This document shows, one piece after another, positions 166 to 33,296 of a stretch of DNA of 37,329 nucleotides; within the stretch, counting starts at the first letter, position 1; every line of letters starts with the position of its first letter. Under the pieces are notes generated by a model. That model made no database searches. It was not told the origin of the DNA and saw only the letters and a list, made by a program, of their open reading frames with translations. The stretch comes from an uncultured Bacteroidales bacterium (lineage in GTDB: Bacteria > Bacteroidota > Bacteroidia > Bacteroidales > Bacteroidaceae). Location of the stretch: contig CACWTR010000028.1 in assembly GCA_902763865.1 (NCBI GenBank), positions 1-37,329 on the forward strand, read 5' to 3'. The translations under genes were made by a program, and so were the position numbers.

Positions 166-1626
166 ATGAGTCAGAAGAATCTACAGACACAGAGCGGGCA
201 GCAGGTGCAAGCCGAGCAGCAGGTGCAGCAGCAGCAATTGTTGCCGCAGCAGGTACTGCTCGTCCGCCTGACGGAGATGCCCGTCGAGGCTCTGAGGCAG
301 CGCGTGGAGCAGGAATGCATGGAGAATCCCTGGCTGGAAGTCTCAGCCTCCCACGACCCCTCCGAGGGGGGGGAGAAGCAACTCGACGAAGTCAACGACG
401 GCGAGGGAGGCGATTTATTCTCCCCTTCTTTGGAGGGGTCGGGGGAGGCCGACGCTTCCTACGACTACCGCTCGGAGGAAGACATGCCCGACTACCTGAC
501 CGGTCCCAGCCACAGCAACGATGCTGCGGAGTACGTCTCCTACGATGACACACTCTCCCTCACTGACCGTCTGCGCGAGCAGATGGCCGATTTCGAGCTC
601 ACCGACCACGAGAAGGAGCTCATGGAATACCTCATCGGCTCGCTCGACGAGGACGGATTGCTGAAGAAGTCGCTTGCCGTCCTTGCCGACGAAGCAGCCA
701 TCTACCAGGGACTCAACACCAGTGTAGCGGAGCTGGAGCACGTGCTTGGCATCCTCCAGCAGTTCGACCCGCCCGGCATCGGTGCACGCTCGTTGCAGGA
801 GTGTCTGCTCCTGCAGGTCCGTCGCAACCCGAAGTTTCCCTATCGGGAGAAGTTCATCACGCTCCTGAGCAAATACTTCGACGACTTCATACACAAGCGC
901 TGGCAGCTGCTGGCCCATAAGCTGAAGGTGACAGTCCGCGACACCGAGCTCATGCAGAAGGAGGTGCTGCGGCTCAATCCGCGTCCCGGAGGCTCCATCG
1001 GCTCTAAGACGGGGGACCGCGCCGTGAGCATCCAGCCCGACTTCCTGGTTGATACCGACGAGGACGGCACCGTCACCGTCACCCTGAGCCGCGGCAACCA
1101 GCCATCGCTCATCATCAGCCCCGATGCCGAGGGAGCGCAGGACACTTTCGTGCGCCAGTACGTGGAGCGGGGCCAGATGTTCATCAACGCTTTGCAGCAA
1201 CGCTCGGAGACGATGATGCGCACCATGCAGGCCATTGTCAAGCTGCAGAAACGCTTCTTCCAGACGGGCTACGAGACGGCGTTGCGCCCCATGAAGCTGG
1301 AGGACGTGGCGCAGGCTACGGGCTACGACATCAGCACCATCAGCCGCGTCAGCAACAGCAAGTACGTCGAGACCTCCTTTGGCACCTATCCGCTGAAGTG
1401 GTTCTTCCTGCACCGTGCCACCCGGAACGATGACGGCGACGATGTCACGGCCCGTCAGGTCAAGGCCGTCCTGCGCCGACTGATAGAAGGGGAGGACAAG
1501 CGCGAACCGCTCAGCGACGAGCAGCTGACCCAGCTGCTCCGCGGCGAGGGCTTCAGCATTGCCCGCCGCACCACCAGCAAGTACCGTGAACAGATGGGGT
1601 TCCCCGTAGCAAGAATGAGGAAATGA
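166..1626 (+). CDS. rpoN: RNA polymerase sigma-54 factor RpoN
   Basis: Sigma-54 directs RNA polymerase to -24/-12 promoters and needs an NtrC-type AAA+ activator to melt DNA. The 486-aa protein has the full architecture: a Gln-rich activator-interacting region I (about 1-60), an acidic region II (about 62-130), the core-binding domain with LTDHEKELMEYLIGSLDEDG and FDPPGIGARSLQECL (about 135-215), a DNA-binding domain with helix-turn-helix LEDVAQATGYDISTISRV (about 380-397), and the RpoN box ARRTTSKYRE at 466-475. The length is normal for the family. Region II carries a paired palindromic element in frame (347-450). The stop overlaps the next start by 4 bp (ATGA), so the downstream gene is probably translationally coupled. 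A likely target promoter and a cognate-type activator are in the same window (15107 and 30415). Confidence 0.97.
   Translation: MSQKNLQTQSGQQVQAEQQVQQQQLLPQQVLLVRLTEMPVEALRQRVEQECMENPWLEVSASHDPSEGGEKQLDEVNDGEGGDLFSPSLEGSGEADASYDYRSEEDMPDYLTGPSHSNDAAEYVSYDDTLSLTDRLREQMADFELTDHEKELMEYLIGSLDEDGLLKKSLAVLADEAAIYQGLNTSVAELEHVLGILQQFDPPGIGARSLQECLLLQVRRNPKFPYREKFITLLSKYFDDFIHKRWQLLAHKLKVTVRDTELMQKEVLRLNPRPGGSIGSKTGDRAVSIQPDFLVDTDEDGTVTVTLSRGNQPSLIISPDAEGAQDTFVRQYVERGQMFINALQQRSETMMRTMQAIVKLQKRFFQTGYETALRPMKLEDVAQATGYDISTISRVSNSKYVETSFGTYPLKWFFLHRATRNDDGDDVTARQVKAVLRRLIEGEDKREPLSDEQLTQLLRGEGFSIARRTTSKYREQMGFPVARMRK
347..450. repeat. Inverted pair of GC-rich palindromic elements inside rpoN
   Basis: The left half (about 348-377, CCTCCCACGACCCCTCC then a G-run and GAGAAG) is matched by the reverse complement of the right half (about 417-449, CCTCCCCCGACCCCTCC then GGGGAGAAT), with about 40 bp between. 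The pair stays in frame and encodes the low-complexity stretch around DPSEGGEK and FSPSLEGSGEA in sigma-54 region II, a segment of variable length in the family. It belongs with the other paired palindromes in this window. Confidence 0.65.
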
Positions 1627-2234
1627 AACAGACGATTCTCTTGGCACGCTTCTTCTCCACCATCTTCCGTCCGTCGTATTATCCCACGGTCGGCATGTTC
1701 ATCCTGCTCAGCTTCACCTATCTGAACCTGTTCCCGTGGGTCTTCAAGCTGTGGGTGCTTTCACTGGTCTTTCTCTTCACGTTCTGCATGCCGGCGCTGG
1801 GCACCTTCATCTACCGACGCCTCCACAAATGGAGTGCCCAGGAGCTGCGGAAGCGTCACAAGCGAGCCGTCCCCTACATTATTAATATATGTTGTTACCT
1901 CTGCCTGATGCACGTCTTTCATGCCACCCACATGCCTCACTTCCTGATGGCTATCGTCGGCATCTCGTTGCTCATCCAGTGCACCTGCATCGTGGTGAAC
2001 CTGTGGTGGAAGGTCAGCATGCACTCGGCTGGTTCGGGAGGCGTGATTGGTGCGCTGGTAGCCTATGCTGCCATCTTCGGCTTCAACCCCGTCTGGTGGC
2101 TCTCCCTGGCTATCCTGGTCTCGGGCTGTGTCATGACGAGCCGCATGGTGCTTCGGCAGCACACCCTGGCACAGGTGCTTGGCGGCACGCTCATCGGCAT
2201 TGCCTGCGGCATCGTGGGGACCATACTGATGTAA
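1623..2234 (+). CDS. PAP2-like integral membrane protein
   Basis: This 203-aa protein has about six hydrophobic segments and resembles PAP2 (phosphatidic acid phosphatase type 2) membrane proteins, which remove phosphate from lipid or polyprenyl phosphates at the membrane. The three PAP2 motifs are degenerate: KRHKRAVPY in place of KxxxxxxRP, SMHSAGSGG in place of PSGH, and SRMVLRQHTLAQ in place of SRxxxxxHxxxD. In the last motif the Arg and His are kept but the final Asp is Gln. Catalysis is therefore uncertain. The start codon overlaps the rpoN stop (ATGA), so the two genes form an operon. The family call is moderate; the substrate is unknown. Confidence 0.75.
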   Translation: MKQTILLARFFSTIFRPSYYPTVGMFILLSFTYLNLFPWVFKLWVLSLVFLFTFCMPALGTFIYRRLHKWSAQELRKRHKRAVPYIINICCYLCLMHVFHATHMPHFLMAIVGISLLIQCTCIVVNLWWKVSMHSAGSGGVIGALVAYAAIFGFNPVWWLSLAILVSGCVMTSRMVLRQHTLAQVLGGTLIGIACGIVGTILM

Positions 2235-2270
2235 CCCTTGTCAACTAACATTTCAAACCATACTTCAACA

Positions 2271-4946: not shown

Positions 4947-4947
4947 C

Positions 4948-5101
4948 CCAACGGCTCACGAGCTTCAGCCCAACGGCTCACGTGCTTATGGCCAACGGCT
5001 CACGAGCTTCAGGCCAACGGCTCACGAGCTTATGGCCAACGGCTCGCGTGCTTATGGCCAACGGCTCACGTGCTTCAGCCCGACGACTCACGAGCCTTTT
5101 G
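4948..5101. repeat. Seven-copy tandem array with exact 22-bp period
   Basis: Units begin at 4948, 4970, 4992, 5014, 5036, 5058 and 5080. Each follows CCAACGGCTCACGWGCTT plus a variable four-base end (CAGC, ATGG or CAGG). The array starts right after the GH27 stop codon. A related four-copy array with the same period and the same CTCACGAG core lies at 33310-33392. Open frames across it are a by-product of the periodicity. Confidence 0.9.
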
Positions 5102-5177
5102 CCCCCTCCCCGTTCAATCTCTCCCCGACTGAGGAATAATTATGATTCCGGATTCGTGGATTTTGAATTAAAACTTG

Positions 5178-5185
5178 TATCTTTG
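5178..5185 (+). promoter_or_regulatory. -7 promoter element of the GH43 gene
   Basis: TATCTTTG, a TAnnTTTG match, lies 26 bases before the GH43 ATG. The GH43 gene therefore probably has its own promoter downstream of the 22-bp array. No clear -33 element at the usual spacing. Confidence 0.65.
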
Positions 5186-5211
5186 CAGAGACTATTAAAC
5201 CCAGAACAGAC

Positions 5212-6777: not shown

Positions 6778-6810
6778 ACCATGAATTGATAATAAAACAA
6801 CGGATTATGA

Positions 6811-6905
6811 TATAAACAACGGATTGAACGGATTGAACGGATTAAAATAATGTTGAAATCAACAAATCAGACAATCCGTTTAATCCGTTCAATCCGTTGT
6901 TTATA
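6811..6905. repeat. Long hairpin between convergent genes, built of AACGGATT units
   Basis: Left arm 6811-6840 and right arm 6876-6905 pair over 30 bp with about one mismatch around a 35-nt AT-rich loop. The arms are themselves tandem copies of AACGGATTG. The hairpin lies between the ends of convergent genes (GH43 on +, phosphoesterase on -) and could act as a bidirectional terminator. The same unit forms a hairpin at 18838-18926, so it is also a dispersed element. Confidence 0.75.
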
Positions 6906-6958
6906 TTATACTGATTGTATTTGTCCTCCATCCGTTTAATCCGAAGTCCTGTGCGTAA

Positions 6959-15122: not shown

Positions 15123-15205
15123 TATATATAAGGTGAGCCTCGCAATAAAGAAGGCGTTATAACGATATAACGTAATAACGACATAACGACAAAAGAAGAA
15201 AAACT

Positions 15206-16567: not shown

Positions 16568-16707
16568 ACAGCCCCTCCCAACCTCCCCCGAGGGGGAGGA
16601 GTTCATTCACACTAAACACAACATAAAACAAAATAACAATGAATAACAAACGAACTTTTCGCCTATCACTCCCCTCCTTAGAGGGAGGGGTCTGGGGTGG
16701 GTCTGTA
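16567..16707. repeat. Inverted pair of palindromic elements around the start of permease B1
   Basis: The left element (about 16570-16602, CCTCCCCCGAGGGGGAGG core with a C-rich tail on its left) and the right element (about 16669-16704, CCCCTCCTTAGAGGGAGGGG then a G-rich tail) face each other. They bracket an AT-rich stretch that contains the B1 ATG (16639). The right element is translated as SLPSLEGGVWGGSVG. Confidence 0.7.
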
Positions 16708-17985: not shown

Positions 17986-17988
17986 AGG

Positions 17989-18170
17989 CCTCACCCCAGA
18001 CCCCTCTCCCGTGGGAGAGGGGAGAAAGGAAGACAATTAACATGCAACAATAATAATTTTAATTAGTACAAATATGAAAACTAACGAGAATGTAACAACG
18101 AATCAGAATTCAGCAAGTCTGTCACTATCAACACCCCTCTCCCACGGGAGAGGCGCTGGGGGTGAGGCTG
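17989..18170. repeat. Inverted pair of palindromic elements containing the ATPase start
   Basis: The left element (17989-18024) begins GCCTCACCCCAGACCCC and the reverse complement of the right element (18131-18169) begins GCCTCACCCCCAGCGCC. Both contain a CTCTCCC...GGGAGAG hairpin. About 105 bp of AT-rich DNA lies between, holding the only upstream ATG of the ATPase (18074). The right element is translated as TPLSHGRGAGGEA. Confidence 0.8.
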
Positions 18171-18838
18171 TAATTCGTCTCAGCGAAATCAACAAAATCT
18201 ATCGTACCGAGGAGGTGGAGACACAAGCCCTGGAGAACGTGAACATCGAAGTCCGCAAGGGCGAGTTCCTCAGCATCATGGGGCCTTCGGGCTGCGGCAA
18301 ATCGACGCTGCTCAACATCATGGGCCTGCTGGACGAACCCACGAGCGGCACCATCGAGCTGTGCGGACAGGTCATCGACACACACATGAGCGACAACCGC
18401 CTGGCCGAGATTCGCAACCGGACGCTGGGCTTCATCTTCCAGAGCTTCCACCTCATCCCGACGCTCAACGTGCTGGACAACGTGCAACTGCCCCTCATCT
18501 ACCGCGGCGTGCGCAGCAGCGAGCGGGTGCGGCTGGCAAAGGACGTCATCGCCCGCGTCGGCCTCTCCCACCGCATGAAGCACCGCCCCACGCAGCTCAG
18601 CGGCGGACAGTGCCAGCGCGTCGCCATCGCCCGCGCCGTCATCGGCAATCCCGAGATACTCCTTGCCGACGAGCCCACCGGCAACCTCGACTCCAAGATG
18701 GGTGCCGAGATTATGGAGCTGCTGCACACCCTCAACAAGGAGGACGGCCGCACCATCGTCATGGTGACGCACAACGAAAAGCAAGCCGCCGAGACCAGCC
18801 GCATCATCAAGTTCCTGGACGGACGACAGGTTTCCTAA
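18074..18838 (+). CDS. ABC exporter ATPase, MacB/LolD type
   Basis: This is the only ATP-binding subunit in the cluster; it powers the FtsX-type permeases from the cytoplasm. The 254-aa protein has Walker A GPSGCGKST (70-78), Q-loop Gln123, signature LSGGQ (175-179), Walker B ILLADE (195-200), D-loop, and H-loop His233. These features and its similarity to LolD/MacB place it in the lipoprotein/macrolide exporter class. Homologues normally start near MIRLSEINKIYRTE. Here the first 33 residues (ending TPLSHGRGAGGEAV) are encoded by an inserted palindromic pair, and VIRL stands where MIRL would be expected. The original start codon therefore seems to have been lost and replaced by the ATG at 18074. 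Confidence 0.95.
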   Translation: MKTNENVTTNQNSASLSLSTPLSHGRGAGGEAVIRLSEINKIYRTEEVETQALENVNIEVRKGEFLSIMGPSGCGKSTLLNIMGLLDEPTSGTIELCGQVIDTHMSDNRLAEIRNRTLGFIFQSFHLIPTLNVLDNVQLPLIYRGVRSSERVRLAKDVIARVGLSHRMKHRPTQLSGGQCQRVAIARAVIGNPEILLADEPTGNLDSKMGAEIMELLHTLNKEDGRTIVMVTHNEKQAAETSRIIKFLDGRQVS

Positions 18839-18926
18839 ACAACGGATTAAACGGATTGAACGGATTGGCTCTACTGATGCTATTGCTTTAGATAAATAAT
18901 CCGTCAAATCCGTTGAATCCGTTGTT
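18838..18926. repeat. AACGGATT-type long hairpin between the ATPase and permease A2
   Basis: Left arm 18838-18866 (AACAACGGATT then AAACGGATT and GAACGGATT) pairs imperfectly with right arm 18898-18926 around a 31-nt loop. It is the same element type as 6811-6905. It starts within the ATPase stop codon and ends 17 bp before the A2 ATG, so it may modulate transcript ends or stability between the two genes. Confidence 0.7.
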
Positions 18927-18943: not shown

Positions 18944-20353
18944 ATGAGTAAGTTCATCTTATTTCTGCGTCATGCGATAGCGTTGGTGCGCGAGGACAAG
19001 CTGTTCTCCACCATCTACGTGGCGGGCACAGCCGTTGCCATCGCCTCGGCCATGGTGGTCGCCATCTTTGTGAACATCCTTTTGGCAGACATCCCGCCCG
19101 AGTCGAATCGCAGCCGTACGCTCTACCTCACCAGTTACTACCGCAAAGCATCAATGGGTAACGGGGAATGGCTCTATACGCAGTTTTCCACCGAGGCCAT
19201 CGACTCGTGCTTCCGCAGAATGGAGTGCGTGGAGGCTGTGGCCGGCTTCATGTCGTACCTTCACTATCTGGACTATAAAGTCAGCGACATGGACGGACAG
19301 CACGAGTTGCCTGTCAGCTTCACTCCTGCCAACACCGACTTCTTCCGCCTCTACGACTTCACGTTCCTCAGCGGCCGACCCTTCTCCGAGCAGGAGTTCC
19401 AGAACGGCGAGCCTGTCTGCGTCATCACGGAGAGACTGGCAAAAAGCCTTGGCCTTGGCCTCACCCCTAACCCCTCTCCCGCGGGAGAGGGGCAAAACCA
19501 GCAACCCACTCCCCTCTCCCACGGGAGAGGGGCTGGGGGAGAGGCTCTGCTTCTGGCCGACAAGCCATTTCGCATCGTGGGAGTAGTCAAGACGGTTAGC
19601 TACATGCTGATGAACGCGGCGGCTGATGTCTATATTCCCTACAAGGTGGAAGGCATTGGGCTTCATCCCGAGCGGCAAACCAACATTCCATACAGCGGCA
19701 ACCTGGATGTCCATATCCTCCTGCGGAAAGGCTTCACGCAGCAGGACTTCATGCGCGAGCTGGAGCCGTGGCGGCAGAGGTATGAAGCCGTGGCGAGCAG
19801 TCAGACAGGCGAGGAAACGGGCTGGCGAGTGTGGGCAAACAGTCATTTCTTCAGATACATTTCCTTTTTCTACAGTCGCGGCCAGGAGGAGAGCACGACG
19901 CTCAAGGTCATGAACCTCATGCCGATTGCCCTGTTGATGCTGCTCTTCCTGCTTCTGCCAGCCGTCAACCTGAGCGGCCTCGTCTCGAACCGCATGGAGG
20001 CACGTCGGGCAGAGATGGGCATAAGGAAAGTTTTCGGTGCCAAGCGGCGGTGGCTGTTGCAAGAAGTCATCAACGAGAACCTGGTCTTGACGCTTCTTGG
20101 CGGTGCCGTAGGCTGGGGGCTTTCGTGGCTCTTCATCAGCCTGATGCGCCACACGAGGGAGTTCCAAACATTATTCGTCAGCGAGGACTCCAAGAGCTTT
20201 GAACTCAGCCTCGACCCCGCCATGTTCTTCACGCCTACGCTCTTCCTCATTGCCTTCCTCTGCTGCGCCGTGCTCAACCTCATGGCAGCCCTCATCCCGG
20301 CATGGCGCTCACTCCGCAAACCTATTGTAGAATCCTTAAATCAGAAAAGATGA
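18944..20353 (+). CDS. FtsX/MacB-like ABC permease A2
   Basis: A-type exporter permease, 469 aa. TM1 is at about 22-45, the periplasmic core at about 50-320, and three C-terminal helices follow. The coupling motif is EMGIRKVFGAKRRWLLQEVI and the end is SLRKPIVESLNQKR. The periplasmic core is interrupted in frame by about 28 residues (LTPNPSPAGEGQNQQ followed by PTPLSHGRGAGGEA, about residues 173-202) made by two palindromic elements. The insert lies just where A1 has its AVGRMV strand, before FRIVGVV. Whether the domain still folds normally is open. The stop overlaps the next ATG (ATGA), so B2 is probably translationally coupled. Confidence 0.9.
   Translation: MSKFILFLRHAIALVREDKLFSTIYVAGTAVAIASAMVVAIFVNILLADIPPESNRSRTLYLTSYYRKASMGNGEWLYTQFSTEAIDSCFRRMECVEAVAGFMSYLHYLDYKVSDMDGQHELPVSFTPANTDFFRLYDFTFLSGRPFSEQEFQNGEPVCVITERLAKSLGLGLTPNPSPAGEGQNQQPTPLSHGRGAGGEALLLADKPFRIVGVVKTVSYMLMNAAADVYIPYKVEGIGLHPERQTNIPYSGNLDVHILLRKGFTQQDFMRELEPWRQRYEAVASSQTGEETGWRVWANSHFFRYISFFYSRGQEESTTLKVMNLMPIALLMLLFLLLPAVNLSGLVSNRMEARRAEMGIRKVFGAKRRWLLQEVINENLVLTLLGGAVGWGLSWLFISLMRHTREFQTLFVSEDSKSFELSLDPAMFFTPTLFLIAFLCCAVLNLMAALIPAWRSLRKPIVESLNQKR
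19460..19550. repeat. Inverted pair of palindromic elements inside permease A2
   Basis: The left copy (about 19460-19492) contains CCCCTCTCCCGCGGGAGAGGGG preceded by CCTCACCCCTAA; the core is a 22-bp palindrome. The right copy (about 19510-19549) has the same core with ACG in the centre, followed by CTGGGGGAGAGGCT. Outer ends are inverted repeats of each other and the spacer is only about 18 bp. The whole pair is open in the A2 frame. Confidence 0.85.
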
Positions 20354-21633
20354 CACTAAAGAACTTTTGGGCGCATCGTGGGCAAAACGCCTTTATATTC
20401 GTGGAGATTCTTCTCACTGCCACCCTCAGCTTCTTTGCCCTCGACGCTATTGTCGTCGAAACATACAACATCTACATTGCGCGTGCCAGCGGCGAGTTCG
20501 AGAAGGAGCATTTGCTGGTGGGAGAGGTGAAGAACACCATAGCCTTGTCCGGCGTCATGAGCCTCGACTCCATCTTTGCCCCCATCTATGCCTTGCGCGA
20601 CCAGGTTCAGAGCCTGCCCGAGGTGCAGTCCGTGAGCCTGGTCAATGAAAGCTTTAGCGGGCGCTTCCAGGAAAGTTCATGGGACAGCGTGCGCACCGAG
20701 ACAGACACGCAGTGCCTGATTGCCTACGAGCACACCTTTGTCTCTGGCGAACGTTTCTTTGAGACGCTTGGCCTGACGCCTGCGCCCGGCAGTCCTTCGG
20801 CAGAGGAGCTGTCGGAGGTGAGAGGCGAGGACAATGTCGTCATCACTCGCAGCCTGGCCCAGGCGCTCTTCGGCACCGAGAAGGTAATAGGCCGACGACT
20901 CGTGTGGGGCGGGAAGTACCATCGCGAGGAGGACAAGAAGCACCTCACCGTCTGCGGCGTGGTGGAGGACGTGAAGGCCATAGAGAGCCAACGGTACTTC
21001 TACAGCATCTTCTTCCCCAATGGTTTGTGGGACAACAGTCCGTTCATGCTCATCCGCCTCAAGCCCGATGCCGACGCCGGGGCATTCTTGGCGCGATATG
21101 ACATGCCGGACCTGCGTCCGCAGGAAGGCGCGTATCAGTTGACGACATTAGAGACGTACAATGACTACAAAAAGAACCACAGCAAGTTGGGCGAAGCGCA
21201 CATGGTGTCAACGATGTTTGGTCTCTTCCTCGGCATTCTGCTCCTCAACGTCATGCTCGGCACACTTGGCAGCTTCTGGCTTCAGATACGCAAACGGACG
21301 GAGGACATCGGCATCATGCGGAGCTTCGGCGCCAAGCGGCGCGACATCTTCCGGATGATATGGCAGGAGGCAGCCCTGCTCACCTTCGTGGCTTGCGTCA
21401 TCGGGCAGGCCATCTGGCTTCAGTTTGCCATGAACGACCTCCTCTTCATGGGGGTGCATGGTTATGATGCCTTGGAGCATGAGACGGACTGGGTGGCGCA
21501 GTTCTGGCCGCACTTCCTCACCGTCTGCGGCATTCAGCTGCTGCTAATGCTCCTCGTCGTCACCCTGGGCATCACCATCCCCACCGTGATTGCTATGTAT
21601 AGGAAACCCGTAGAAGCACTGAGGCATGAATAA
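20350..21633 (+). CDS. FtsX/MacB-like ABC permease B2
   Basis: B-type partner of A2. ATG 20350 was chosen because it overlaps the A2 stop (ATGA) and opens MTLKNFWAHRGQNAFIFVEI, matching the N-terminal layout of B3. An earlier in-frame ATG lies inside A2. The protein is 427 aa, with TM1 at about 14-35, a periplasmic core, and three C-terminal helices. The coupling motif is EDIGIMRSFGAKRRDIFRMI and the end is RKPVEALRHE. It is the most divergent of the four B permeases and carries no palindromic insert. Confidence 0.9.
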   Translation: MTLKNFWAHRGQNAFIFVEILLTATLSFFALDAIVVETYNIYIARASGEFEKEHLLVGEVKNTIALSGVMSLDSIFAPIYALRDQVQSLPEVQSVSLVNESFSGRFQESSWDSVRTETDTQCLIAYEHTFVSGERFFETLGLTPAPGSPSAEELSEVRGEDNVVITRSLAQALFGTEKVIGRRLVWGGKYHREEDKKHLTVCGVVEDVKAIESQRYFYSIFFPNGLWDNSPFMLIRLKPDADAGAFLARYDMPDLRPQEGAYQLTTLETYNDYKKNHSKLGEAHMVSTMFGLFLGILLLNVMLGTLGSFWLQIRKRTEDIGIMRSFGAKRRDIFRMIWQEAALLTFVACVIGQAIWLQFAMNDLLFMGVHGYDALEHETDWVAQFWPHFLTVCGIQLLLMLLVVTLGITIPTVIAMYRKPVEALRHE

Positions 21634-23170
21634 AATAAGACCCTCCCTAACCCTCCCTTCTTATAGGAAGGGGATAATAATGATACTGCTGCTCGTCTGC
21701 ACGCTTCCCATGCTGTCTGCCCCTCTCCCTTTAAGGGAGGGGACGGGGGAGGGTCTTTTGTCCCTCTCGCTTCCCGACTGCATCGCGATGGCGCGGCGGC
21801 AGAGCGTGGACGCGGCTGTGGCCCTGGGCGAGCTGAAGTCGGCCTACTGGCAGTGGCGCAGCTACAAGGCCGACCTGCTGCCGGAGGTGTCGCTTTCGAC
21901 GAGCGGCAGCTACAACAAACGCTACACGAGCTACCAGCAGGGGGACGGCGGCATCTCGTACGTCCGCAACGACTACCTCGGGCTCAACGGTTCGCTCTAC
22001 GTCACGCAGAAGCTGTGGCCCACGGGCGGCACCCTCAGCGTGGAGTCGTCGCTCGACTTCCTGCACCAGTCCGGCTCGGGCGGCGGCAACCAGTTCATGT
22101 CGATGCCTGTTGCCGTCACGCTGTCGCAACCGCTCTTCGGCGTGAACCACCTGAAGTGGAACCGTCGCATCGAGCCCCTGCGCTACCGCGAGGCACAGGC
22201 GCGTTTCCTGACCGCGACGGAACAGGTGGCAATGAAGGCCATCAGCCTTTTCTTTAATCTGATATTGGCAGGCGAGCAGGTGGGCATTGCCCGTCAGAAC
22301 CTGCAGAAGGCGGAGGAACTCTACAAGGTGGCTGGGGCCAAGCGAGAGATGGGCACCATCAGCGAGAACGACGTGCTGCAACTGAAACTGGACGTGCTGA
22401 ACGCGCATAGCGCCCTGACAAACAGCGAGAGCAACCGTCAGGCCCGACAGTTTGCCCTGCAATCGTTCTTGGATGTAGAGGCAGAGATTGAACCAATAGT
22501 GCCAGCACTCCCCCAAAAGGGGAGCGGGGAGGGAGCTTTGCACCTCGACTATGAAGAAGTGTTGAACCATGCCCTGCAGAACAATGCCTTTGCCACGACG
22601 ATGCGCCGCCGCCAGCTGGAGGCCGACTACAACGTGGCATCGGCCAAGGCCAACCGCCGCAGCGTCACGCTCCACGCACAGCTGGGCTTCACCGGCATGG
22701 CCGACAAGCTGGGCGGTGCCTACCGCGACCTGCTGAGCAAGCAGGTGGTGCAGGTGGGCTTCTCCATCCCCATCCTCGACTGGGGCAAACGCAAGGGGCA
22801 GCGCAAGATGGCGGAAAGCAACCGCGAGATAGTGCAGGGTCAGCTCAGGCAGCAGGCACAGGAGTTCCGTCAGGACATCTTCATCCTGACGGAGCAGTTC
22901 AACAACCAGGCAGAGCAACTGCGCATCGCCTGCGAAGCGGACACCATTGCCCAGAAGCGTTACAATACGAACATAGAGACTTTCAAGATAGGCAGCATCT
23001 CCATGCTGGACATCTCCGATGCTACAAAGGCCAAGGACGAGGCAAGGCAGAACCGCATCGCACAGCTGCATTACTACTGGTACTATTACTACCAGCTGCG
23101 CAGCATCGCCCTCTGGGACTTCGAGAAGGGATGTGACATAATTGAAGACATTGAAAAGCTTATAAAGTAA
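21626..23170 (+). CDS. TolC-like outer-membrane efflux protein
   Basis: Outer-membrane channel of the tripartite exporter. The frame from ATG 21626 gives 514 aa and overlaps the B2 stop by 8 bp. The signal-peptide core MILLLVCTLPMLSA starts at Met19 (21680), so either ATG may be used. Two OEP repeats with long amphipathic helices are visible: LPDCIAMARRQSVDAAVALG to about residue 280, then YEEVLNHALQNNAFATTMRR to the end with ISMLDISDATKAKDEARQNR. A palindromic pair brackets the signal peptide and encodes PLPLREGTGEG directly after the cleavage region. A single further element at 22506-22535 encodes LPQKGSGEGAL between the two repeats. Confidence 0.93.
   Translation: MNKIRPSLTLPSYRKGIIMILLLVCTLPMLSAPLPLREGTGEGLLSLSLPDCIAMARRQSVDAAVALGELKSAYWQWRSYKADLLPEVSLSTSGSYNKRYTSYQQGDGGISYVRNDYLGLNGSLYVTQKLWPTGGTLSVESSLDFLHQSGSGGGNQFMSMPVAVTLSQPLFGVNHLKWNRRIEPLRYREAQARFLTATEQVAMKAISLFFNLILAGEQVGIARQNLQKAEELYKVAGAKREMGTISENDVLQLKLDVLNAHSALTNSESNRQARQFALQSFLDVEAEIEPIVPALPQKGSGEGALHLDYEEVLNHALQNNAFATTMRRRQLEADYNVASAKANRRSVTLHAQLGFTGMADKLGGAYRDLLSKQVVQVGFSIPILDWGKRKGQRKMAESNREIVQGQLRQQAQEFRQDIFILTEQFNNQAEQLRIACEADTIAQKRYNTNIETFKIGSISMLDISDATKAKDEARQNRIAQLHYYWYYYYQLRSIALWDFEKGCDIIEDIEKLIK
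21636..21758. repeat. Inverted pair of palindromic elements bracketing the TolC signal peptide
   Basis: The left element (21638-21672) starts AGACCCTCCCTAACCC; the reverse complement of the right element (21720-21756) starts AGACCCTCCCCCGTCCC. The right one carries a CTCCCTTTAAGGGAG hairpin. Only about 47 bp lie between, coding for the signal-peptide core. Both halves are open in the TolC frame. Confidence 0.75.
22506..22535 (+). repeat. Single palindromic element inside the TolC gene
   Basis: CTCCCCCAAAAGGGGAG followed by CGGGGAGGGAG: one right-hand half of the paired elements seen elsewhere, without a visible left partner. It is translated as LPQKGSGEG between the two OEP repeats, at a position where loops tolerate insertion. 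Confidence 0.65.
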
Positions 23171-23438: not shown

Positions 23439-24683
23439 ATGGACAGGCAGATACCTGTCAGCGAAAGGCGCAAACGTAAAATAAAGAAGGCGGCGGCATG
23501 GGCTGGCGGCTTCCTGGCCGTGCTGGGCGCAGCCACATGGCTCGGCACACAGATGATACCGACGCTGGACCGGAAGGCCCTCGTCATCTCGGACGTCGAT
23601 AGAGGCACGATAGACGTCAGCGTCTCGGCCACGGGGCGCATCGTACCGGCCTTCGAGGAGGTCATCGTCTCGCCCATCAGCTCGCGCATCCTCGAAGTCT
23701 ATGCCCACAGCGGCGACAGCGTAGATGTAGGCACACCGCTGCTCCGGCTCGACCTTCAGACAGCCGAGACGGACTACGCCAAGGCCCTCGACGAGCGCGA
23801 GATACGGCGGCAGCAGATGGCACAGCTCCGGGCGAACACCGAGACGCAGCTCTCCGACCGCCGCATGCAGATAGAGGTGGAGGAGATGAAGGTGTCGCAG
23901 CTGGAGGCTCAGCTCCGCAACGAGCTCTACCTCGACAGCCTCGGCTCCGGCACGCGCGACCGTGTCCGCCAGGCCGAGACAGCCCTCCGCACGGCACAGC
24001 TGCAGCTCCGGCAGCTCCGGCAGCAGTACGAGAACGAGCAGCGCGTCAAGCAGGCCGACATGCGCATGCAGCAGCTTCAGAACAGCATCTTCGAGAAGGG
24101 GCTCGGCGAGAAGCGTCGCACCCTGGACGATGCCAAGATACGCTCGCCCCGCCGCGCCACCCTGACCTACATCAACTCGGAGGTCGGCTCCACAGTCTCT
24201 GCGGGTCAGAAGCTCGCCATCGTCAGCGACCTCACGCACTTCAAGGCCGAGTGCGAGATAAGCGACACACATGCCGACCGCGTCCGCGTGGGCGGAGCCG
24301 TCATCCTGAAGATAGGCAAGGAGATGCTCAGCGGCACCGTCGGCACCGTCACGCCTCTCAGTCAGAGCGGCGCCATCACCTTCACCGCCATGCCCCACGA
24401 CATGAGTCACCCGCGCCTGCGCTCCGGCCTCCGCACCGAAGTGTTCGTCATCACCAGCATCAAGGACGACGTCCTGCGCATCCGCAACGGCTCGTTCTAC
24501 AGCGGCCCGGGCGACTACACGCTGTTCGTAATGAAGAATGAAGAATTAAGAATGAAGAATGTCAAGCTCGGCGAGTGCAACTACGACTATATCGAAGTGG
24601 TCGAGGGTCTGGAGGAAGGTGAAAAGGTCGTCGTCAGCGACATGACAAAGTACAAGGGACGCGAGAAGCTGAAGGTGAAATAG
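23439..24683 (+). CDS. HlyD/MacA-like membrane fusion protein
   Basis: Periplasmic adaptor linking the permeases to TolC. ATG 23439 (414 aa) is preferred over an ATG 21 bp earlier that lies within a GAATTATGAATT repeat. The protein has a basic N-terminus (RRKRKIKK), one TM helix (about 18-35), a barrel-sandwich half (EEVIVSPISSRILEVYAHSG), a long coiled-coil hairpin (about 105-225), the second half (IRSPRRATLTYINSEVGSTV), a beta-barrel, and a C-terminal membrane-proximal domain (LGECNYDYIEVVEGLEEGEK). Residues VMKNEELRMKN near 365 are encoded by an AAGAATGAAGAATTAAG repeat; a duplicate of the 3' end at 27445 lacks this and reads ERLVPRQVRLGECN. Confidence 0.93.
   Translation: MDRQIPVSERRKRKIKKAAAWAGGFLAVLGAATWLGTQMIPTLDRKALVISDVDRGTIDVSVSATGRIVPAFEEVIVSPISSRILEVYAHSGDSVDVGTPLLRLDLQTAETDYAKALDEREIRRQQMAQLRANTETQLSDRRMQIEVEEMKVSQLEAQLRNELYLDSLGSGTRDRVRQAETALRTAQLQLRQLRQQYENEQRVKQADMRMQQLQNSIFEKGLGEKRRTLDDAKIRSPRRATLTYINSEVGSTVSAGQKLAIVSDLTHFKAECEISDTHADRVRVGGAVILKIGKEMLSGTVGTVTPLSQSGAITFTAMPHDMSHPRLRSGLRTEVFVITSIKDDVLRIRNGSFYSGPGDYTLFVMKNEELRMKNVKLGECNYDYIEVVEGLEEGEKVVVSDMTKYKGREKLKVK
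24531..24560 (+). repeat. GAATGAAGAATTAAG repeat inserted in the HlyD-like gene
   Basis: An AT-rich low-complexity run made of AAGAATGAAG-type units lies within otherwise GC-rich coding sequence. It resembles the intergenic GAATTATGAATT runs at 23385-23437 and AATGAAGAATG at 28940. It keeps the frame and replaces residues preserved in the duplicated gene fragment at 27445. Confidence 0.7.
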
Positions 24684-24745
24684 AAAGCAAAGCCTCATCA
24701 TAATGAAATAACGTTATCACGTCATAACGAAAAAGAACACAACAA

Positions 24746-28910: not shown

Positions 28911-28911
28911 A

Positions 28912-29086
28912 GGACCCACCCCCGACCACCTTTAGGGGGAATGAAGAATGTAATACTAATACATAATATATATATAATATGAACATGGCAAAACAAGCAT
29001 CCACAACATCATCCTCTCTCCCCCTAAAGGGGGTCGGGGGGTCCTCCTCCCCCTTTAAGGGGGAGTTAGAGAGGGTCGGGAGGGGA
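28912..29086. repeat. Palindromic elements around the start of permease B4
   Basis: The left element (28913-28940) reads GGACCCACCCCCGACCACC then TTTAGGGGG. The reverse complement of the right element (about 29017-29044) reads GGACCCCCCGACCCCC then TTTAGGGGG. Between them lies AT-rich DNA with the B4 ATG (28979). A second right-hand copy (about 29045-29086) follows directly. Translated, the right copies give SSLPLKGVGGSSSPFKGELERVGRG. Confidence 0.8.
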
Positions 29087-30340
29087 TCTACCTGGCTCGC
29101 CCTCGAACTCATTCTTGTCACCGTCGCCTGTTGGTGGGCCTTCGACCCCGTGCTGGTGACAGGGACGGTAATAGGGATGCGACCCGGCTACGACATCGAC
29201 AGGATTGTGAAACTGAACGTGGCAAGCACCGTCACCCGCCTGGATGTGGAGCAGCAACAGATTACCTCTCTTCCCGACGAAGAGGAACACTTGTTGCAAA
29301 AGGTGCTGGAGCTGGAGGACGTGGAACTGGCCTATCGTGCCTCTGACAATCCCCTTGGCTATGGAATAGGAGGCTGGTCAGGCTATTTCTACCACGACAA
29401 CGACTCCCTTTACGGCCAGCGCTATAGCTTCGCTAAGGAATCGCGGATGTTCGAAGTCTATGGCATCCAGTCGCTCACGCCCGAAGTGCCAACCAGCGAG
29501 CTGAGCCACGACTGCGAATGGAACGAGACGGTCATCATCACACGCTCCTTTGCGATGGGCCTCTTCGGTACCATCGACGTGGCAGGACGCGCCTTAATCG
29601 GTATGGACTATGGCAACTTGGAGGACGGAGGATATGGCTGGATAAAGAAGACGTACCGCATCCGTGCCGTGGTGGAGGACGTGCACAATCATGCCTGGGA
29701 CCGCGACCTTGCCACGGTGTTTGTCTGCGCCGAAGGGCCGGACACGTCTGCACCTATCGTCGTTAGGCTGCGTGAAGGCGTGAATGCAGAGCACTTTGTG
29801 GAGAGCCACAGGCAGCAACTGCAAGCGGAGATGATGACGGAGCACTGCTACATCCGCGACCTCCAGACGGCCCGGGATGCCTTCCGCGATAGCATTGACC
29901 GCTATCGGATAGGGCGGCAGATGCGCCGCAACCTGCTCATCGCTGCCTTCTTCTCGGTGAACATGGCTTTCGGCGTGCTGGGCACCTTGCTGATGTACAC
30001 ACGCCAGCGCCGCGAGGAGGCAGGCGTCCGGCGTGCCTTCGGTGCTACACGCTGGAACATCTTTTGGGGCTTCATCCGCGAGGCATGGCTCCTGACCACC
30101 TTCAGCGTCGCCATCGGCTGCGCCATCTACTTCCAGTTCGCCGCCTCGCACGGACTCTTCGACAACTTCACAAACGCGAATCCTGCCGTCCGGCTCTGGT
30201 TCGACGACTTCGGCACACACTTCCTCGTCGTGTCCCTCTTTGTCTATATTATTATATTATGTACGGTCCTCGTCGGCACCGCCATACCTGCCTGGCACAT
30301 CTGCCGCAGCACCATTACGGAGGCAATAAGAGAAGAATAA
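28979..30340 (+). CDS. FtsX/MacB-like ABC permease B4
   Basis: B-type partner of A4, 453 aa, about 23 residues longer than B3 because of an N-terminal extension (SSLPLKGVGGSSSPFKGELE) encoded by two palindromic elements. TM1 is at about 40-58 (LALELILVTVACWWAFDP), then the periplasmic core and three C-terminal helices. The coupling motif is EEAGVRRAFGATRWNIFWGFI and the end is HICRSTITEAIREE, as in B3. It is the last gene of the exporter cluster. The start codon lies inside the bracketed AT-rich spacer of the element pair. Confidence 0.92.
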   Translation: MNMAKQASTTSSSLPLKGVGGSSSPFKGELERVGRGSTWLALELILVTVACWWAFDPVLVTGTVIGMRPGYDIDRIVKLNVASTVTRLDVEQQQITSLPDEEEHLLQKVLELEDVELAYRASDNPLGYGIGGWSGYFYHDNDSLYGQRYSFAKESRMFEVYGIQSLTPEVPTSELSHDCEWNETVIITRSFAMGLFGTIDVAGRALIGMDYGNLEDGGYGWIKKTYRIRAVVEDVHNHAWDRDLATVFVCAEGPDTSAPIVVRLREGVNAEHFVESHRQQLQAEMMTEHCYIRDLQTARDAFRDSIDRYRIGRQMRRNLLIAAFFSVNMAFGVLGTLLMYTRQRREEAGVRRAFGATRWNIFWGFIREAWLLTTFSVAIGCAIYFQFAASHGLFDNFTNANPAVRLWFDDFGTHFLVVSLFVYIIILCTVLVGTAIPAWHICRSTITEAIREE

Positions 30341-30375
30341 GCAGGAAGCTGCTGGCTTATGTCGAAATGTTTTCT

Positions 30376-30383
30376 TATCTTTG
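30376..30383 (+). promoter_or_regulatory. -7 promoter element of the regulator/kinase operon
   Basis: TATCTTTG (TAnnTTTG) 31 bases before the regulator ATG. This would give the two-component genes a housekeeping promoter separate from the sigma-54-dependent exporter transcript. Confidence 0.65.
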
Positions 30384-30414
30384 CACTCGTAAATGTAAAA
30401 TGATTAACTGGTAA

Positions 30415-31860
30415 ATGAAGATTCTCGTAGTAGATGACGACAAGAACATACGCCACTCGCTGCGGCGGCTGCTGGAGTACAACGGGCACGAGGCGGTGCT
30501 GACCGAGGAGCCGAAGGCTGCCATACAGGTCTTGCGGGACGAGCCTGCGGTAGAGCTGGTGCTGATGGACATGAACTTCAGTCACTCCACCGACGGCGAG
30601 GAGGGCCTGACACTGCTCAGGCAGGCGAAGCTGTTCCGTCCCGACGTGCCCATCATCCTGATGACGGCCTGGGGCAGCATCGACCTGGCCGTGCGCGGCA
30701 TGCGGGCCGGGGCCTTCGACTTCATCACGAAGCCGTGGAACGCCGACGTGCTGATGGAAAGGATCAGAACGGCGAAGCAAATTAACAATTCTAATAAGGA
30801 TAGGGGGCAAGGAGCAGGGAGCAAGGAGCAAGAGAATACCACCTGCCCCGACAATCCTCTTGCCCCTGGCTCCTCGCCCCTTGCTCCCTACCTCCAAGGC
30901 GTGAGGCTGCCTTCCCTGTCCCATATTTACTCCACGGTGGCTCGCATCGCTCCGACGAATGCGCCGGTCCTCATCACGGGCGAGAGCGGCACGGGCAAGG
31001 AGCTGATTGCCGAGACCATACACCGGCAAAGTAAGCGGGCTAACGGACCATTTGTAAAAGTAAACCTCGGGGGCATCTCAACATCTTTGTTCGAGAGCGA
31101 GATGTTCGGCCACAAGAAAGGTGCCTTCACCGATGCCGTCTCCGACCGCACTGGCCGCTTCGAACTGGCCGACGGCGGCACGATCTTCCTGGACGAGATA
31201 GGCGAGCTGTCGCTGGCAAGCCAGGTGAAGCTGCTGCGCGTGCTGCAGGACCAGACGTATGAGGTGCTGGGCGACAGCCGGACGCGCCGCACGGATGTCC
31301 GCGTCATCTGCGCCACGAATGCCGACCTGCGGGCGATGGTGGCGGAGCACACGTTCCGCGAGGACCTCTTCTACCGCATCAACCTGGTGGGCATCCACCT
31401 GCCGCCGCTGCGCGAAAGGAGGGAGGACATCCCGCTGCTGGTGGAACACTTCCTGCGGAAGGCTTGCGCGGCGGACAATCTTCCCGCCGTGACTGCTTTG
31501 CCGGACGCCATCGCCTACCTGCAGACGCTGCCCTTCCCCGGCAATATACGCGAGCTGAAGAACATGGTGGAGCGGGCTGTGCTGTTGGCCTCTCCCCTAC
31601 CCCCTCCGAAGGGAGGGGGAGAAAGGTTACTGACTGCCGCTGACTTTCGGAACGAGGCACAGACCCTCTCTGACTCCCCCCTAAAGGGGGAGGACTCCCT
31701 CCCCTTAAGGGAGGGTTGGGGAGGGTCTCTTTCCTCCGTGGAGCGGAGCACCATTGCAGCCTGCATAGCCCGCTGCGGCGGCAACCTCTCGCTGGCGGCA
31801 AAGGAGCTGGGCATCAGCCGCGGCGCACTCTACCGGAAGATTGAGAAATATAATTTATGA
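30415..31860 (+). CDS. NtrC-family sigma-54 response regulator
   Basis: The 481-aa protein has three domains. The receiver (about 1-120) has acidic pocket DDD at 7-9, phosphoacceptor Asp52 in LMDMNF, and KPW lysine near 106. The AAA+ domain (about 160-390) has Walker A GESGTGKE near 188, Walker B GGTIFLDEIGE near 254, and the sigma-54 contact loop as GAFTDA, a known variant of GAFTGA. A Fis-type HTH closes it (GGNLSLAAKELGISRGALYR). Phosphorylation should trigger oligomerisation and opening of a -24/-12 promoter, most simply the one at 15107. Two linkers are expanded by repeats: 30803-30892 (QGAGSKEQENTTCPDNPLAPG) between receiver and AAA+, and 31588-31732 (SPLPPPKGGGE, SPLKGEDSLPLREGWGG) between AAA+ and HTH. 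Confidence 0.95.
   Translation: MKILVVDDDKNIRHSLRRLLEYNGHEAVLTEEPKAAIQVLRDEPAVELVLMDMNFSHSTDGEEGLTLLRQAKLFRPDVPIILMTAWGSIDLAVRGMRAGAFDFITKPWNADVLMERIRTAKQINNSNKDRGQGAGSKEQENTTCPDNPLAPGSSPLAPYLQGVRLPSLSHIYSTVARIAPTNAPVLITGESGTGKELIAETIHRQSKRANGPFVKVNLGGISTSLFESEMFGHKKGAFTDAVSDRTGRFELADGGTIFLDEIGELSLASQVKLLRVLQDQTYEVLGDSRTRRTDVRVICATNADLRAMVAEHTFREDLFYRINLVGIHLPPLRERREDIPLLVEHFLRKACAADNLPAVTALPDAIAYLQTLPFPGNIRELKNMVERAVLLASPLPPPKGGGERLLTAADFRNEAQTLSDSPLKGEDSLPLREGWGGSLSSVERSTIAACIARCGGNLSLAAKELGISRGALYRKIEKYNL
30803..30892. repeat. GGAGCAAGG-type inverted repeat inside the regulator gene
   Basis: The left arm (30803-30834) is made of GGGGCAAGGAGCAGGGAGCA-like units and the right arm (30857-30892) is its imperfect inverse (CTCTTGCCCCTGGCTCC...). 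It keeps the frame and encodes the receiver-AAA+ linker. The repeat family differs from the CCCTCC/GGGAGG elements at the other end of the same gene. Confidence 0.7.
31588..31732. repeat. Three palindromic elements between AAA+ and HTH domains
   Basis: The first element (about 31588-31627, CCCCCTCCGAAGGGAGGGGG core) is followed after about 35 bp by an inverted pair. That pair has a left half starting AGACCCTCTCTGACTCCCCC (31661-31680), with an AGGGGGA hairpin arm, and a right half with CCCTCCCCTTAAGGGAGGG ending GGGGAGGGTCT (31692-31722). The outer AGACCCTC/GAGGGTCT ends are exact terminal inverted repeats. Confidence 0.8.
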
Positions 31861-31950
31861 CGTGATAACGTTATAACGAAATAACGTCATAACGACAATT
31901 CGTGATAACGAAATAACGTCATAACGTGATAACGACAACCCGAAATAACG
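31857..31950. repeat. ATAACG low-complexity repeat before the kinase gene
   Basis: About a dozen degenerate units of the form RTAACGWNATAACG fill the gap between the regulator and kinase genes. The same kind of run precedes permease A1 (about 15155-15190), permease A3 (about 24704-24730) and, inverted, the phosphoesterase gene (about 9952-10000). Confidence 0.7.
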
Positions 31951-31961
31951 AAACTACTCCC

Positions 31962-33296
31962 GTGAAACTGAAGCATTACTTTCTCATCCTTGTCGTGGGC
32001 ATTGCTACGCTTGCTGGCATCGGCATCTACGCTTTGCTGGAGGAACGCTCCTGGCTGTTCTACGCCACGGAGTGCCTTGCCGCCGGGCTGTTTCTCTACC
32101 TGAGCTTCTTCTTCCGCAAGGTGATCCGTCCTTACGAGACGCTGATTGGCGGCATGGAGCTGGTGCGCGACCTGGACCTGACGACACGGCTGGCGCTGTC
32201 GGGCCAGCACGAGACGGACGTCATTGTCCGCACGTTCAACGACCTGCTGGCACGCCTGCGCAGCGAGCACCTTTCCCTGGAGGAGCAGTACAACTTCCTG
32301 ACACTCCTTATCAAGGCTTCGCCGCTGGGCGTGGTGCAGTGCAACCTGGACGGAGATGTCACCTCGATGAACCCTGCCGCGCGGAAGATGATGTCGCCCG
32401 CCATAGAGCAGACCATGCAGTCCCTGCCGCTTGACACGGACACGACGGTGCGTCCGCCGGGCGAGCCGCAGCTGTTCCGCATCAGCCATCTCTCCTTCCC
32501 CGACCGCGGCTACAGGCACCCCTTCTTCCTCATCGAGTCGCTGACCGACGAGGTGCGCAAGGCAGAGAAAGCTGCCTACGAGCGCATCATCCGCATGATA
32601 GCGCACGAGGTGAACAACAGCGTGGCGGGCATCGTGGGCAGCCTTGCCGACGACGAGAGGGAGCGCCTGCTGGCCCTCTCCAAGTTCGTCACCCGCATTG
32701 CCGAGGTGGTGAAGATACCGCAGCCGCAGCTGCAGCTCTGCGACCTGAGCGAGGAGGTGGAGGCTTGCCGGCCTTTCCTGGAGAGCCTCTGCACCGTGAA
32801 GGGCATACGCATCGGCTTCCGCCTCACCGACGAAGCCACACCCGTGCGGCTCGACACCGTCCTCTTCCAGCAGGTGCTCATCAACATCGTCAAGAACAGC
32901 ATCGAAGCAGGGGCAAAGGAGATAACTATAACCCTCGCTGACTCCAGGACCCTCGCTGACTCCCCCTTAAAGGGGGAGAACACCGGCGAAGGCTCCCTCC
33001 CTTTAAGGGAGGGCCGGGGAGGGTCTGGAAGCTGGGGAGGGTCTGGAGGCCGGGAAGAGTCTTCCGTGGAACTTTCCGTCATCGACAACGGCCCGGGCAT
33101 ACCGCCCGAAGTGTCGGCCAACCTCTTCACCCCCTTCTTCTCCACCAAGCCGCAGGGCCAAGGCATCGGTCTCATGCTCATCCGCGACATCCTCTCGGCC
33201 CACGGATGCACCTTCAGCCTGCTCACCGACCCCGGCGACCACCTCACCCGCTTCACGATTCATTTCCCCTCCTGCCGCCACGTCCTGTCAAAGTAG
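31962..33296 (+). CDS. Membrane sensor histidine kinase, NtrB-like partner of the NtrC regulator
   Basis: GTG 31962 (444 aa, MKLKHYFLILVVGIATLAG) is preferred over a GTG 36 bp upstream that lies inside the ATAACG repeat. Two close TM helices (about 5-22 and 27-46) bound a very short periplasmic loop, so it may sense a membrane signal. Then come a HAMP-like linker, a PAS-like segment (LLIKASPLGVVQCNLDGDV), the H-box IAHEVNNS with His215, and the N-box NIVKNSIEAGA near 308. The G1 box DNGPGIP starts at 375 and the G2 box is GQGIGLML. Between N-box and G1 an in-frame repeat adds about 36 residues (SPLKGENTGEGSLPLREG...). It follows the regulator by 65-100 bp and is its likely phosphodonor. Confidence 0.93.
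   Translation: MKLKHYFLILVVGIATLAGIGIYALLEERSWLFYATECLAAGLFLYLSFFFRKVIRPYETLIGGMELVRDLDLTTRLALSGQHETDVIVRTFNDLLARLRSEHLSLEEQYNFLTLLIKASPLGVVQCNLDGDVTSMNPAARKMMSPAIEQTMQSLPLDTDTTVRPPGEPQLFRISHLSFPDRGYRHPFFLIESLTDEVRKAEKAAYERIIRMIAHEVNNSVAGIVGSLADDERERLLALSKFVTRIAEVVKIPQPQLQLCDLSEEVEACRPFLESLCTVKGIRIGFRLTDEATPVRLDTVLFQQVLINIVKNSIEAGAKEITITLADSRTLADSPLKGENTGEGSLPLREGRGGSGSWGGSGGREESSVELSVIDNGPGIPPEVSANLFTPFFSTKPQGQGIGLMLIRDILSAHGCTFSLLTDPGDHLTRFTIHFPSCRHVLSK
32930..33056. repeat. Inverted pair of palindromic elements inside the kinase ATPase domain
   Basis: The left half contains GACCCTCGCTGACTCCCCC and a TTAAAGGGGGA arm (about 32951-32981), preceded by a partial copy of CCCTCGCTGACTCC. The right half contains CTCCCTCCCTTTAAGGGAGG ending GGGGAGGGTC (about 32994-33026). 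The tail GGGGAGGGTCTGGA is then repeated once (33033-33048). The insert sits between the strand ITITLA and VELSVIDNGPG, a hairpin-loop position of the GHKL fold. Confidence 0.8.

Follow-up and report, generated by a model that had tools for sequence, protein, structure and literature searches.

Triplex-type palindromic repeats as in-frame inserts in protein-coding genes of a Bacteroidales genus

Rickettsia offers the best-known case of palindromic elements that lie in frame within genes. A 37,329-nucleotide stretch of DNA from an uncultured Bacteroidales bacterium (GenBank assembly GCA_902763865.1, contig CACWTR010000028.1; hereafter the window) raises the question of whether a different repeat has entered protein-coding genes in the same manner. 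The original prediction, made from the letters of the window, described palindromes with a C- or G-rich tail at eight loci, and took them for pairs of repetitive extragenic palindromes (REPs), or bacterial interspersed mosaic elements (BIMEs), inserted in frame into at least eight genes and moved by REP-associated tyrosine transposases (RAYTs). We followed these elements through the source genome (G000; 2.9 Mb, 84% complete, the window being its contig 28), its close relative G076 and other genomes of the same genus, which are numbered likewise. The results point to palindromic repeats that are short and non-autonomous and are built like the intrastrand-triplex motif (PIT/TM); they have probably entered protein-coding genes of this genus in frame, and repeatedly.

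Grammar and pairing of the elements

A scan of 637,561 bases of G000, a partly chosen sample, for a hairpin with a mirroring tail gave 44 elements, and six shuffled versions of the sample (three shuffled by single bases and three by 4-mer blocks) gave none; exact element patterns read backwards, used as a control, did not occur. As predicted, each of the eight window loci holds GC-rich hairpins whose tail is rich in C or G. The strict scan passed 11 elements at six of these loci and none at rpoN or 21638; one member of the pair fails it at 17987, 28912 and 32931, and several copies are degenerate.

Each element consists of a C-rich tail, a linker of about 3 nt and a hairpin, the tail tending to mirror the pyrimidine arm. 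Across the 44 elements, stems measure 6-10 nt and first loops 1-6 nt; 38 have a linker of 3 nt and six have one of 5 nt. Grouping by eye gave family A (AGCCTCACCCC-NNN-CCCCTCTCCC-RY-GGGAGAGGGG), family A' (AGCCTCCCC-NNN-CCCCTCC-NNN-GGAGGGG), family B (AGACCCTCCCC-NN-CCCTCCCTTNAAGGGAGGG) and a fourth family of CCCCC/GGGGG type. All 44 agree with the structural definition of the triplex class (stem of 6-15 nt, loops of 1-6 nt, third block mirroring the purine arm), an agreement that the scan presupposed, its limits being set near these values. An independent test of the mirror relation used 228 entries for C-rich hairpin strands found without the tail rule (one entry per strand per hairpin). The arm itself was symmetric in 22 entries; among the other 206, the best tail was nearer to the mirror in 112 and to a direct copy in 22, with 72 ties. 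Identity of the tail to the mirror at offset 3 was 0.546, against a mean of 0.485 and a maximum of 0.507 in 1000 tail shuffles. The mirror fit was close in families A and A' and looser in the others.

The predicted arrangement in inverted pairs was borne out. The 105 loci of G000 and G076 comprised 64 single elements, 33 two-hairpin loci of '+-' and two of '--' arrangement, none of '-+', two single hairpins tailed on both sides, and four loci with at least three elements; in all 33 opposite-strand pairs of separate hairpins the C-rich tail points outward (tail-hairpin ... hairpin-tail). At the level of sequence, these counts establish a repeat family with a defined pair architecture.

The intrastrand-triplex motif is a better-fitting class for these elements than the GTAG/CGTC REPs, and they may form a triplex. 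Holder et al. (2015) described the motif TM_ECO, 5'-CCCTCNCCC-N3-6-GGGNGAGGG-N3-GGGNGAGGG, with 3610 copies in 262 proteobacterial genomes, as always intergenic in E. coli MG1655 and as forming a triplex in vitro when single-stranded, which was not seen for the duplex or in vivo (PMC4666352). The features common to both are the order of pyrimidine arm, loop, purine arm, 3-nt linker and mirror third strand, the core CCCTCTCCC/GGGAGAGGG with a third strand of GGGTGAGGG type, inverted pairs, and a copy number that differs between close relatives; the present elements differ in the 2-nt loop of family A, in having several stem families and many genic copies, and in their Bacteroidales hosts. The palindromic repeats of Enterobacter sp. 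638, CCCTCTCCCXX(X)GGGAGAGGG, share the hairpin core and frequent duplication or triplication and often lie at 3' ends of genes, coding copies being unmentioned in the part of that account covered (PMC2869309).

Intragenic REP dimers are also on record, with in-frame copies in DNA repair and other genes such as Opitutus terrae uvrA (PMC3733652), and in both respects our elements resemble them. They differ in their tail of 6-10 nt, which mirrors the arm, and in lacking a systematic tag: GTAG or CTAC was found within the element and its 8-nt flanks in only 5 of 44 cases, CGTC or GACG in only 9, and a loop of 4-5 nt as in CGTC-REPs in only 8. What stands of the REP or BIME assignment is the short, dispersed, inverted pair. 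Rickettsia palindromic elements, about 150 bp long and with families of their own, are likewise palindromic, dispersed and in frame in many unrelated genes (PMC10969869, PMC3733652); a GC-rich unit of about 90 nt with triplex-type tails sets ours apart. The BrickBuilt repeats of Porphyromonas, also of the Bacteroidales, are stated to be always intergenic (PMC4596501). Our literature search found no account of the coding form in Bacteroidota, nor of genes there that often take up such a repeat as coding sequence, which agrees with the earlier view that such a system was undescribed in this group.

Intact pairs of family A recur as whole units. Twelve such units, 85-96 nt long as matched, were found (seven in G000 and five in G076, four of the latter orthologous to G000 units). 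Their spacers are alike, in both orientations, at two sites of the CCA-adding enzyme gene, in aroE (shikimate dehydrogenase) and in the MacB permease gene of the window (19457-19546), and a second spacer group joins the units in exonuclease VII (XseA) and a second histidine kinase. Altogether 24 of 66 spacer comparisons (four of them orthologous) exceeded the threshold, against none of 66 after shuffling; the unit thus occurs as a whole in unrelated genes. The same DNA is read as SLTPDPSPAGEG at one site of the CCA-adding enzyme and as ASPPTPLPQERG at the other. Since the unit is read in more than one frame, the repeat is one of DNA, and a repeat at the peptide level is ruled out.

Insertion into unrelated genes

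Judged with a codon-usage model, 15 of the 30 loci of G000 and 30 of the 75 loci of G076 lie inside coding regions. As with the Rickettsia elements, insertion is in frame and affects many unrelated genes (45 of 105 loci internal), the internal counts being affected by the selection of part of the fetched stretches for their elements. Hosts supported by Pfam include RpoN, MacB/FtsX permeases, an ABC ATPase, an outer membrane efflux protein, an NtrC-type regulator, histidine kinases, the CCA-adding enzyme, a TsaD-family protein (presumably TsaB-like), the large subunit of exonuclease VII, shikimate dehydrogenase and UvrD; some of these genes we take to be essential. Two histidine kinases carry their inserts in what was judged by eye to be the same loop of the ATPase domain. 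The same elements were also found between genes and around start codons. Within the window, in-frame insertion into at least eight genes had been claimed; it held for four loci (RpoN, a MacB-type permease, the NtrC-type regulator and a histidine kinase), while at the other four (16570-16704, 17987-18169, 21638-21756 and 28912-29077) the elements lie around a start codon of uncertain choice: the first precedes or touches the start region, and the N-terminus holds only the second (at places with a third).

Orthologues free of the insert, which the original prediction had called for, were found for XseA, the CCA-adding enzyme, AroE and the histidine kinase, and they establish insertion in frame, comparable to that of the Rickettsia elements. 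For XseA, 56 of 61 genomes searched gave a match; among the 29 relatives that were fetched and aligned only G019 has the insert, which G076, outside this set, also carries. The peptides of the G000 CCA-adding enzyme are in none of 29 aligned relatives (two unreadable at site 1 and two cut at site 2), several of which have other inserts at the same sites; the enzyme of G034, 91-92% identical in the matched pieces, has neither of these peptides. G076 has the unit at site 1 and, at site 2, a 20-nt stub of it in a gene that is 78 nt shorter there and in frame, consistent with an in-frame deletion of the unit.

At site 1 of AroE (15 relatives) G000 has 40 residues, against 19 in each of G005, G023, G012, G035, G008, G068, G034 and G070, the remaining relatives having a different sequence of 23-52 residues. 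At site 2 it has 44 residues, against 14 in G005 and G023; G034 has a degenerate copy and G076 the unit, and the other relatives were not read by the motif. The window histidine kinase (31926-33296) has 84 residues between conserved motifs, against 47 in G076 and 46 in G024, where the motif was read, and in all seven relatives compared the blastn alignments break off at 32897-32906 and take up again at 33070-33083. In solved relatives, residues 51 and 52 of 4wby meet at site 1 of the CCA-adding enzyme, and residues 191 and 196 of 8txr meet at the exonuclease VII site.

Some intact units have changed more slowly than their surroundings. The exonuclease VII unit shows no difference between G019 and G000 in 86 positions, against 109 in 580 in the 300-nt flanks, with a sharp edge at the insert (binomial probability 2e-8 under independence). 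A unit in a protein of G076 that resembles TrpF by eye differs from G019 at 2 of 119 positions (flanks, 111 of 578), and the AroE unit differs between G000 and G076 at 1 of 88 (79 of 564). Exceptions are site 1 of the CCA-adding enzyme (8 of 86 against 66 of 497) and one G019-G076 pair (24 of 69 against 106 of 530), and degenerate copies diverge like their own flanks. Summed over comparable loci, units and flanks differ at 45 of 706 and 410 of 4446 positions (G000-G076), 36 of 213 and 580 of 3303 (G019-G000), and 39 of 345 and 550 of 3246 (G019-G076), two places of G019 entering twice via overlapping loci. These sums and the exceptions place the slow-down in some intact units, not in the whole family; its cause could be purifying selection acting on structure, a transfer confined to the insert, or collapse during metagenome assembly.

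Origin and spread of the inserts

How did these units come to lie in genes? We consider it probable that the elements, as single copies or head-out inverted pairs (intact family A units of about 85-96 nt), enter protein-coding genes, those of housekeeping enzymes included, and persist where the net change keeps the frame and is located in a linker or loop. Several frames of a unit are open, and translation of one of them would add a stretch of about 30 residues rich in Pro, Gly, Ser and Glu; new copies may come from a process that mobilises or recombines the folded DNA. A triplex-type repeat, known elsewhere between genes, would then act as an in-frame coding cassette in tRNA-repair, DNA-repair and other genes, doing in a Bacteroidales genus what a different repeat does in Rickettsia, with empty and filled alleles in close relatives. 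Such alleles would offer natural protein pairs with and without a 30-residue insert and a means to date insertion and decay, and annotators and structure modellers would do well to treat such peptides as insertions and not as domains.

Several observations weigh against this account. The same-genus genomes are drafts, 61-100% complete, and host proteins carrying the insert peptide are known here from DNA alone. The mirror relation of the tails is real but modest outside families A and A'. The strict TM_ECO string had no match in the 637,561 bases (three with a relaxed loop and third strand), so that the elements are kin of TM_ECO and not TM_ECO itself. In stretches that were not chosen for elements, 18 of 59 loci (2 of 10 in G000, 16 of 49 in G076) were strictly internal, against 955 of 1500 random positions, which means that coding sites are depleted about twofold overall; pairs in these stretches were internal in 8 of 14 cases, all from G076, which is near background, so that pairs hardly avoid coding sequence. 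The junctions at XseA, the CCA-adding enzyme and the kinase are local replacements, with a few codons changed or replaced, and no exact junction, target duplication or clean recent insertion was seen at the sites compared between G000 and G076 and with G005, G019 and G034, which show local replacement or decay. As to miniature inverted-repeat transposable elements (MITEs), outer inverted ends are present and no target duplication was seen at the locally replaced junctions, Y1 transposases being the only ones searched.

The alternative that survives best, if still an unlikely one, is that the spread of the inserts is due mostly to homologous recombination or conversion, between copies already present and sites related to them, and not to transposition. 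Similar blocks stand at paralogous permease junctions in the window and in G076, and junctions are locally replaced. The same loop of the CCA-adding enzyme holds different repeat families across species (GARSKEQ...PLAPCPLPPAP in G026, EELRMKNEE...NSSFFILHSS in G019). At site 1 of this enzyme, moreover, the spacer in G076 has a likeness of 0.8 to its orthologue and is identical to the spacer of site 2 in G000, as would suit conversion. Against this, the shared units sit in unrelated genes (CCA-adding enzyme, aroE, MacB permease), and the spacers are identical in three of the four orthologous unit pairs while paralogous spacers differ; conversion between copies is therefore not favoured.

Mobilisation of the pairs by a same-genus RAYT (Y1) transposase that recognises the hairpins, as in a classical REP or BIME and as the original prediction proposed, seems distinctly improbable, and we rejected it as far as these genomes allow on grounds of presence, correlation and flanks. 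The inverted-pair plan and the hairpin with an unpaired tail do resemble those of REP doublets forming hairpins (REPINs), and G000 has one full Y1 gene and three matches to a Y1-like family of about 400 residues. This family, present in 38 of 73 same-genus genomes, is slightly commoner where elements occur (15 of 22 genomes, against 23 of the other 51; p = 0.08). However, among the same 73 genomes Y1 genes were detected (E up to 1e-8) in 10, elements (scored by two exact patterns only) in 22 and both in three; Y1 is thus found in 3 of 22 element-bearing genomes and 7 of 51 others, without correlation (Fisher test, p = 1.0). The element-rich G019, only 62% complete, yielded neither type of gene.

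Nor was a Y1 gene flanked by matching triplex-type elements found at the seven full Y1 loci of the genus, where this arrangement was sought. Five of them are bordered on each side by a different palindrome (CCCAGGGC/GCCCTGGG or CCAGCCA/TGGCTGG) and two show no such pair; at one of the five (locus L221, in G088) a single triplex-type element lies nearby, on one side only. No other element turned up in the 32 Y1 loci (93,526 bases), a weak test as most of these come from other families, and 30 Y1-like loci (109,318 bases) held five, all in three loci.

Two observations on these transposase genes stand apart from the coding units. The classical RAYT-REP arrangement (CCCAGGGC..GCCCTGGG or CCAGCCA..TGGCTGG) occurs at loci L001 (1344-1362, 1911-1929 and 2086-2104), L221, L364, L374 and L387. 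The Y1-like proteins (loci L002 and L388-L417) have a weak Y1 (HUH) domain and a long C-terminal part, often with several copies per genome, and are possibly domesticated relatives of RAYTs.

Least probable are ordinary low-complexity linkers, made by slippage and convergent use of Pro and Gly codons with no mobile DNA: the insert sites are indeed variable linkers and loops where other species carry other low-complexity repeats, but the reading of one DNA in two frames, the spacers common to unrelated genes in both orientations, the occurrence of the same elements between genes and around start codons, and the exact pair geometry led us to reject this origin for intact units, though it could hold for degenerate copies.

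Returning to triplex-type repeats that enter genes as DNA, we asked how far they extend beyond the genus. The TM-type pattern was found in at least 118 stretches from many phyla. Among the matches listed, 20 of 125 triplex-type loci had an open reading frame of at least 60 codons on both sides, several probably spurious (GC-rich genomes), and coding use outside the genus looks like an exception. The 90-nt unit itself matches plasmids of the cyanobacterium Pseudanabaena galeata CCNP1313 with 75-78% identity, in the annotated genes WP_281009867.1 and WP_281009668.1; metagenome bins are thus not the sole source of in-frame units. One of these genes encodes a DNA methyltransferase, where the unit is translated as SLTPQPPLPRGEGEQENLLLLPSPSGRGAGGEG, 16 residues ahead of the DPACGSG stretch; the second gene reads it in a different frame, and one of the two uses the same frame as here. 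Phages gave one weak partial match, and eight viral-contig stretches match the exact pattern. A tentative and rather unlikely extension, prompted by the slow change of some units and by the cyanobacterial copies, is that certain intact pairs within genes are maintained in their own right for the structure of their DNA or RNA. Such a pair would be a triplex or hairpin with a function, nested in coding sequence, that an unrecognised system would have spread across phyla.

Window loci and neighbouring repeats

The eight window loci are summarized in Table 1. The predicted RNA fold of 17980-18180 has -84.9 kcal/mol (z -9.4) with the start codon within a loop, and the internal unit region 19440-19560 is also predicted to fold strongly (-78.6, z -7.7); for the four loci whose pairs enclose or abut start codons, a regulatory effect is plausible.

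Table 1. Triplex-type elements and pairs in the window and the genes that hold them
Position	Strand	Feature	Gene and placement	Inverted arms
345..450	+	Degenerate inverted pair, in frame	rpoN (166-1626); linker between activator-interacting and core-binding domains (Pfam AID 18-59, CBD 129-319)	42 nt at 336/418 (336-377/418-459), 81% complementary
16570..16704	+	Pair around start codon ATG 16639	FtsX/MacB permease (16639-17985); first element just 3' of upstream stop, second in N-terminus; Pfam MacB_PCD and FtsX further downstream	
17987..18169	+	Family A pair around start codon ATG 18074	ABC ATPase (18074-18838)	46 nt at 17977/18134, 83% complementary
19457..19546	+	Intact 90-nt unit, in frame; peptide GLTPNPSPAGEGQNQQPTPLSHGRGAGGEA	Permease (18944-20353); within MacB_PCD domain, Pfam match 22-274 spanning the unit	35 nt at 19458/19511
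21638..21756	+	Degenerate pair around start	Outer membrane efflux protein (21626-23170); OEP domain from residue 50	
28912..29077	+	Elements around start codon 28979	FtsX permease (28979-30340); two copies in N-terminus	
31587..31728	+	One element and a pair, in frame	NtrC-type regulator (30415-31860); linker between AAA lid and HTH_8 (Pfam AAA_lid_14 333-393, HTH_8 439-479)	
32931..33042	+	Pair with repeated tails, in frame	Histidine kinase (31926-33296); ATPase domain, about 37 extra residues	49 nt at 32931/32994

The RpoN linker varies in sequence and length across 29 aligned relatives; the four best matches of this protein in a plasmid collection were from Bacteroides, Prevotella, Phocaeicola and Parabacteroides (39.5-43.5% identity), in line with a Bacteroidales lineage. 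G076 holds different elements at the site equivalent to that of the efflux protein gene, and a block resembling that at 28912-29077 lies at another of its permease junctions. At the NtrC-type regulator, six of the seven relatives that were read have other linkers, and G076 carries the pair as well.

Other repeats share the window with these elements. In the linker between receiver and AAA domains of the NtrC-type regulator lies an unrelated repeat insert (30802..30890, +; peptide GAGSKEQ...PLAPGSSPLAP) with inverted arms at 30816/30873 and a tandem unit at 30802-30830, at the place where G076 has triplex-type elements. This second coding repeat comprises GGGAGCAAGGAGCAAG along with its inverse; it is read as GARSKEQ.../PLAPCPLP in protein linkers and is also present in a UvrD gene (locus L092, 7316-9601). 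An AATGAAG tandem in a HlyD-type gene (24530-24561) is read MKNEELRMKN, and the same type fills the CCA-adding enzyme loop of G019 (locus L232). Tandem palindromic repeats of ATAACGTCATAACGAA type occur at 31855-31953, 24695-24730 and 15155-15188, partly in the start region of the kinase gene. Between genes, a 22-nt tandem repeat on GCTCACGAG is found at 4948-5095 and 33318-33392 of the window and at about 1060-1215 of locus L001, and inverted pairs of AACGGATT units (6806-6910 and 18838-18926) follow a plan like that of the coding pairs but are AT-rich. The sequences TACCTTTGCA and TATCTTTGCA, which we take to be a Bacteroidota promoter motif, rank among the commonest 10-mers.

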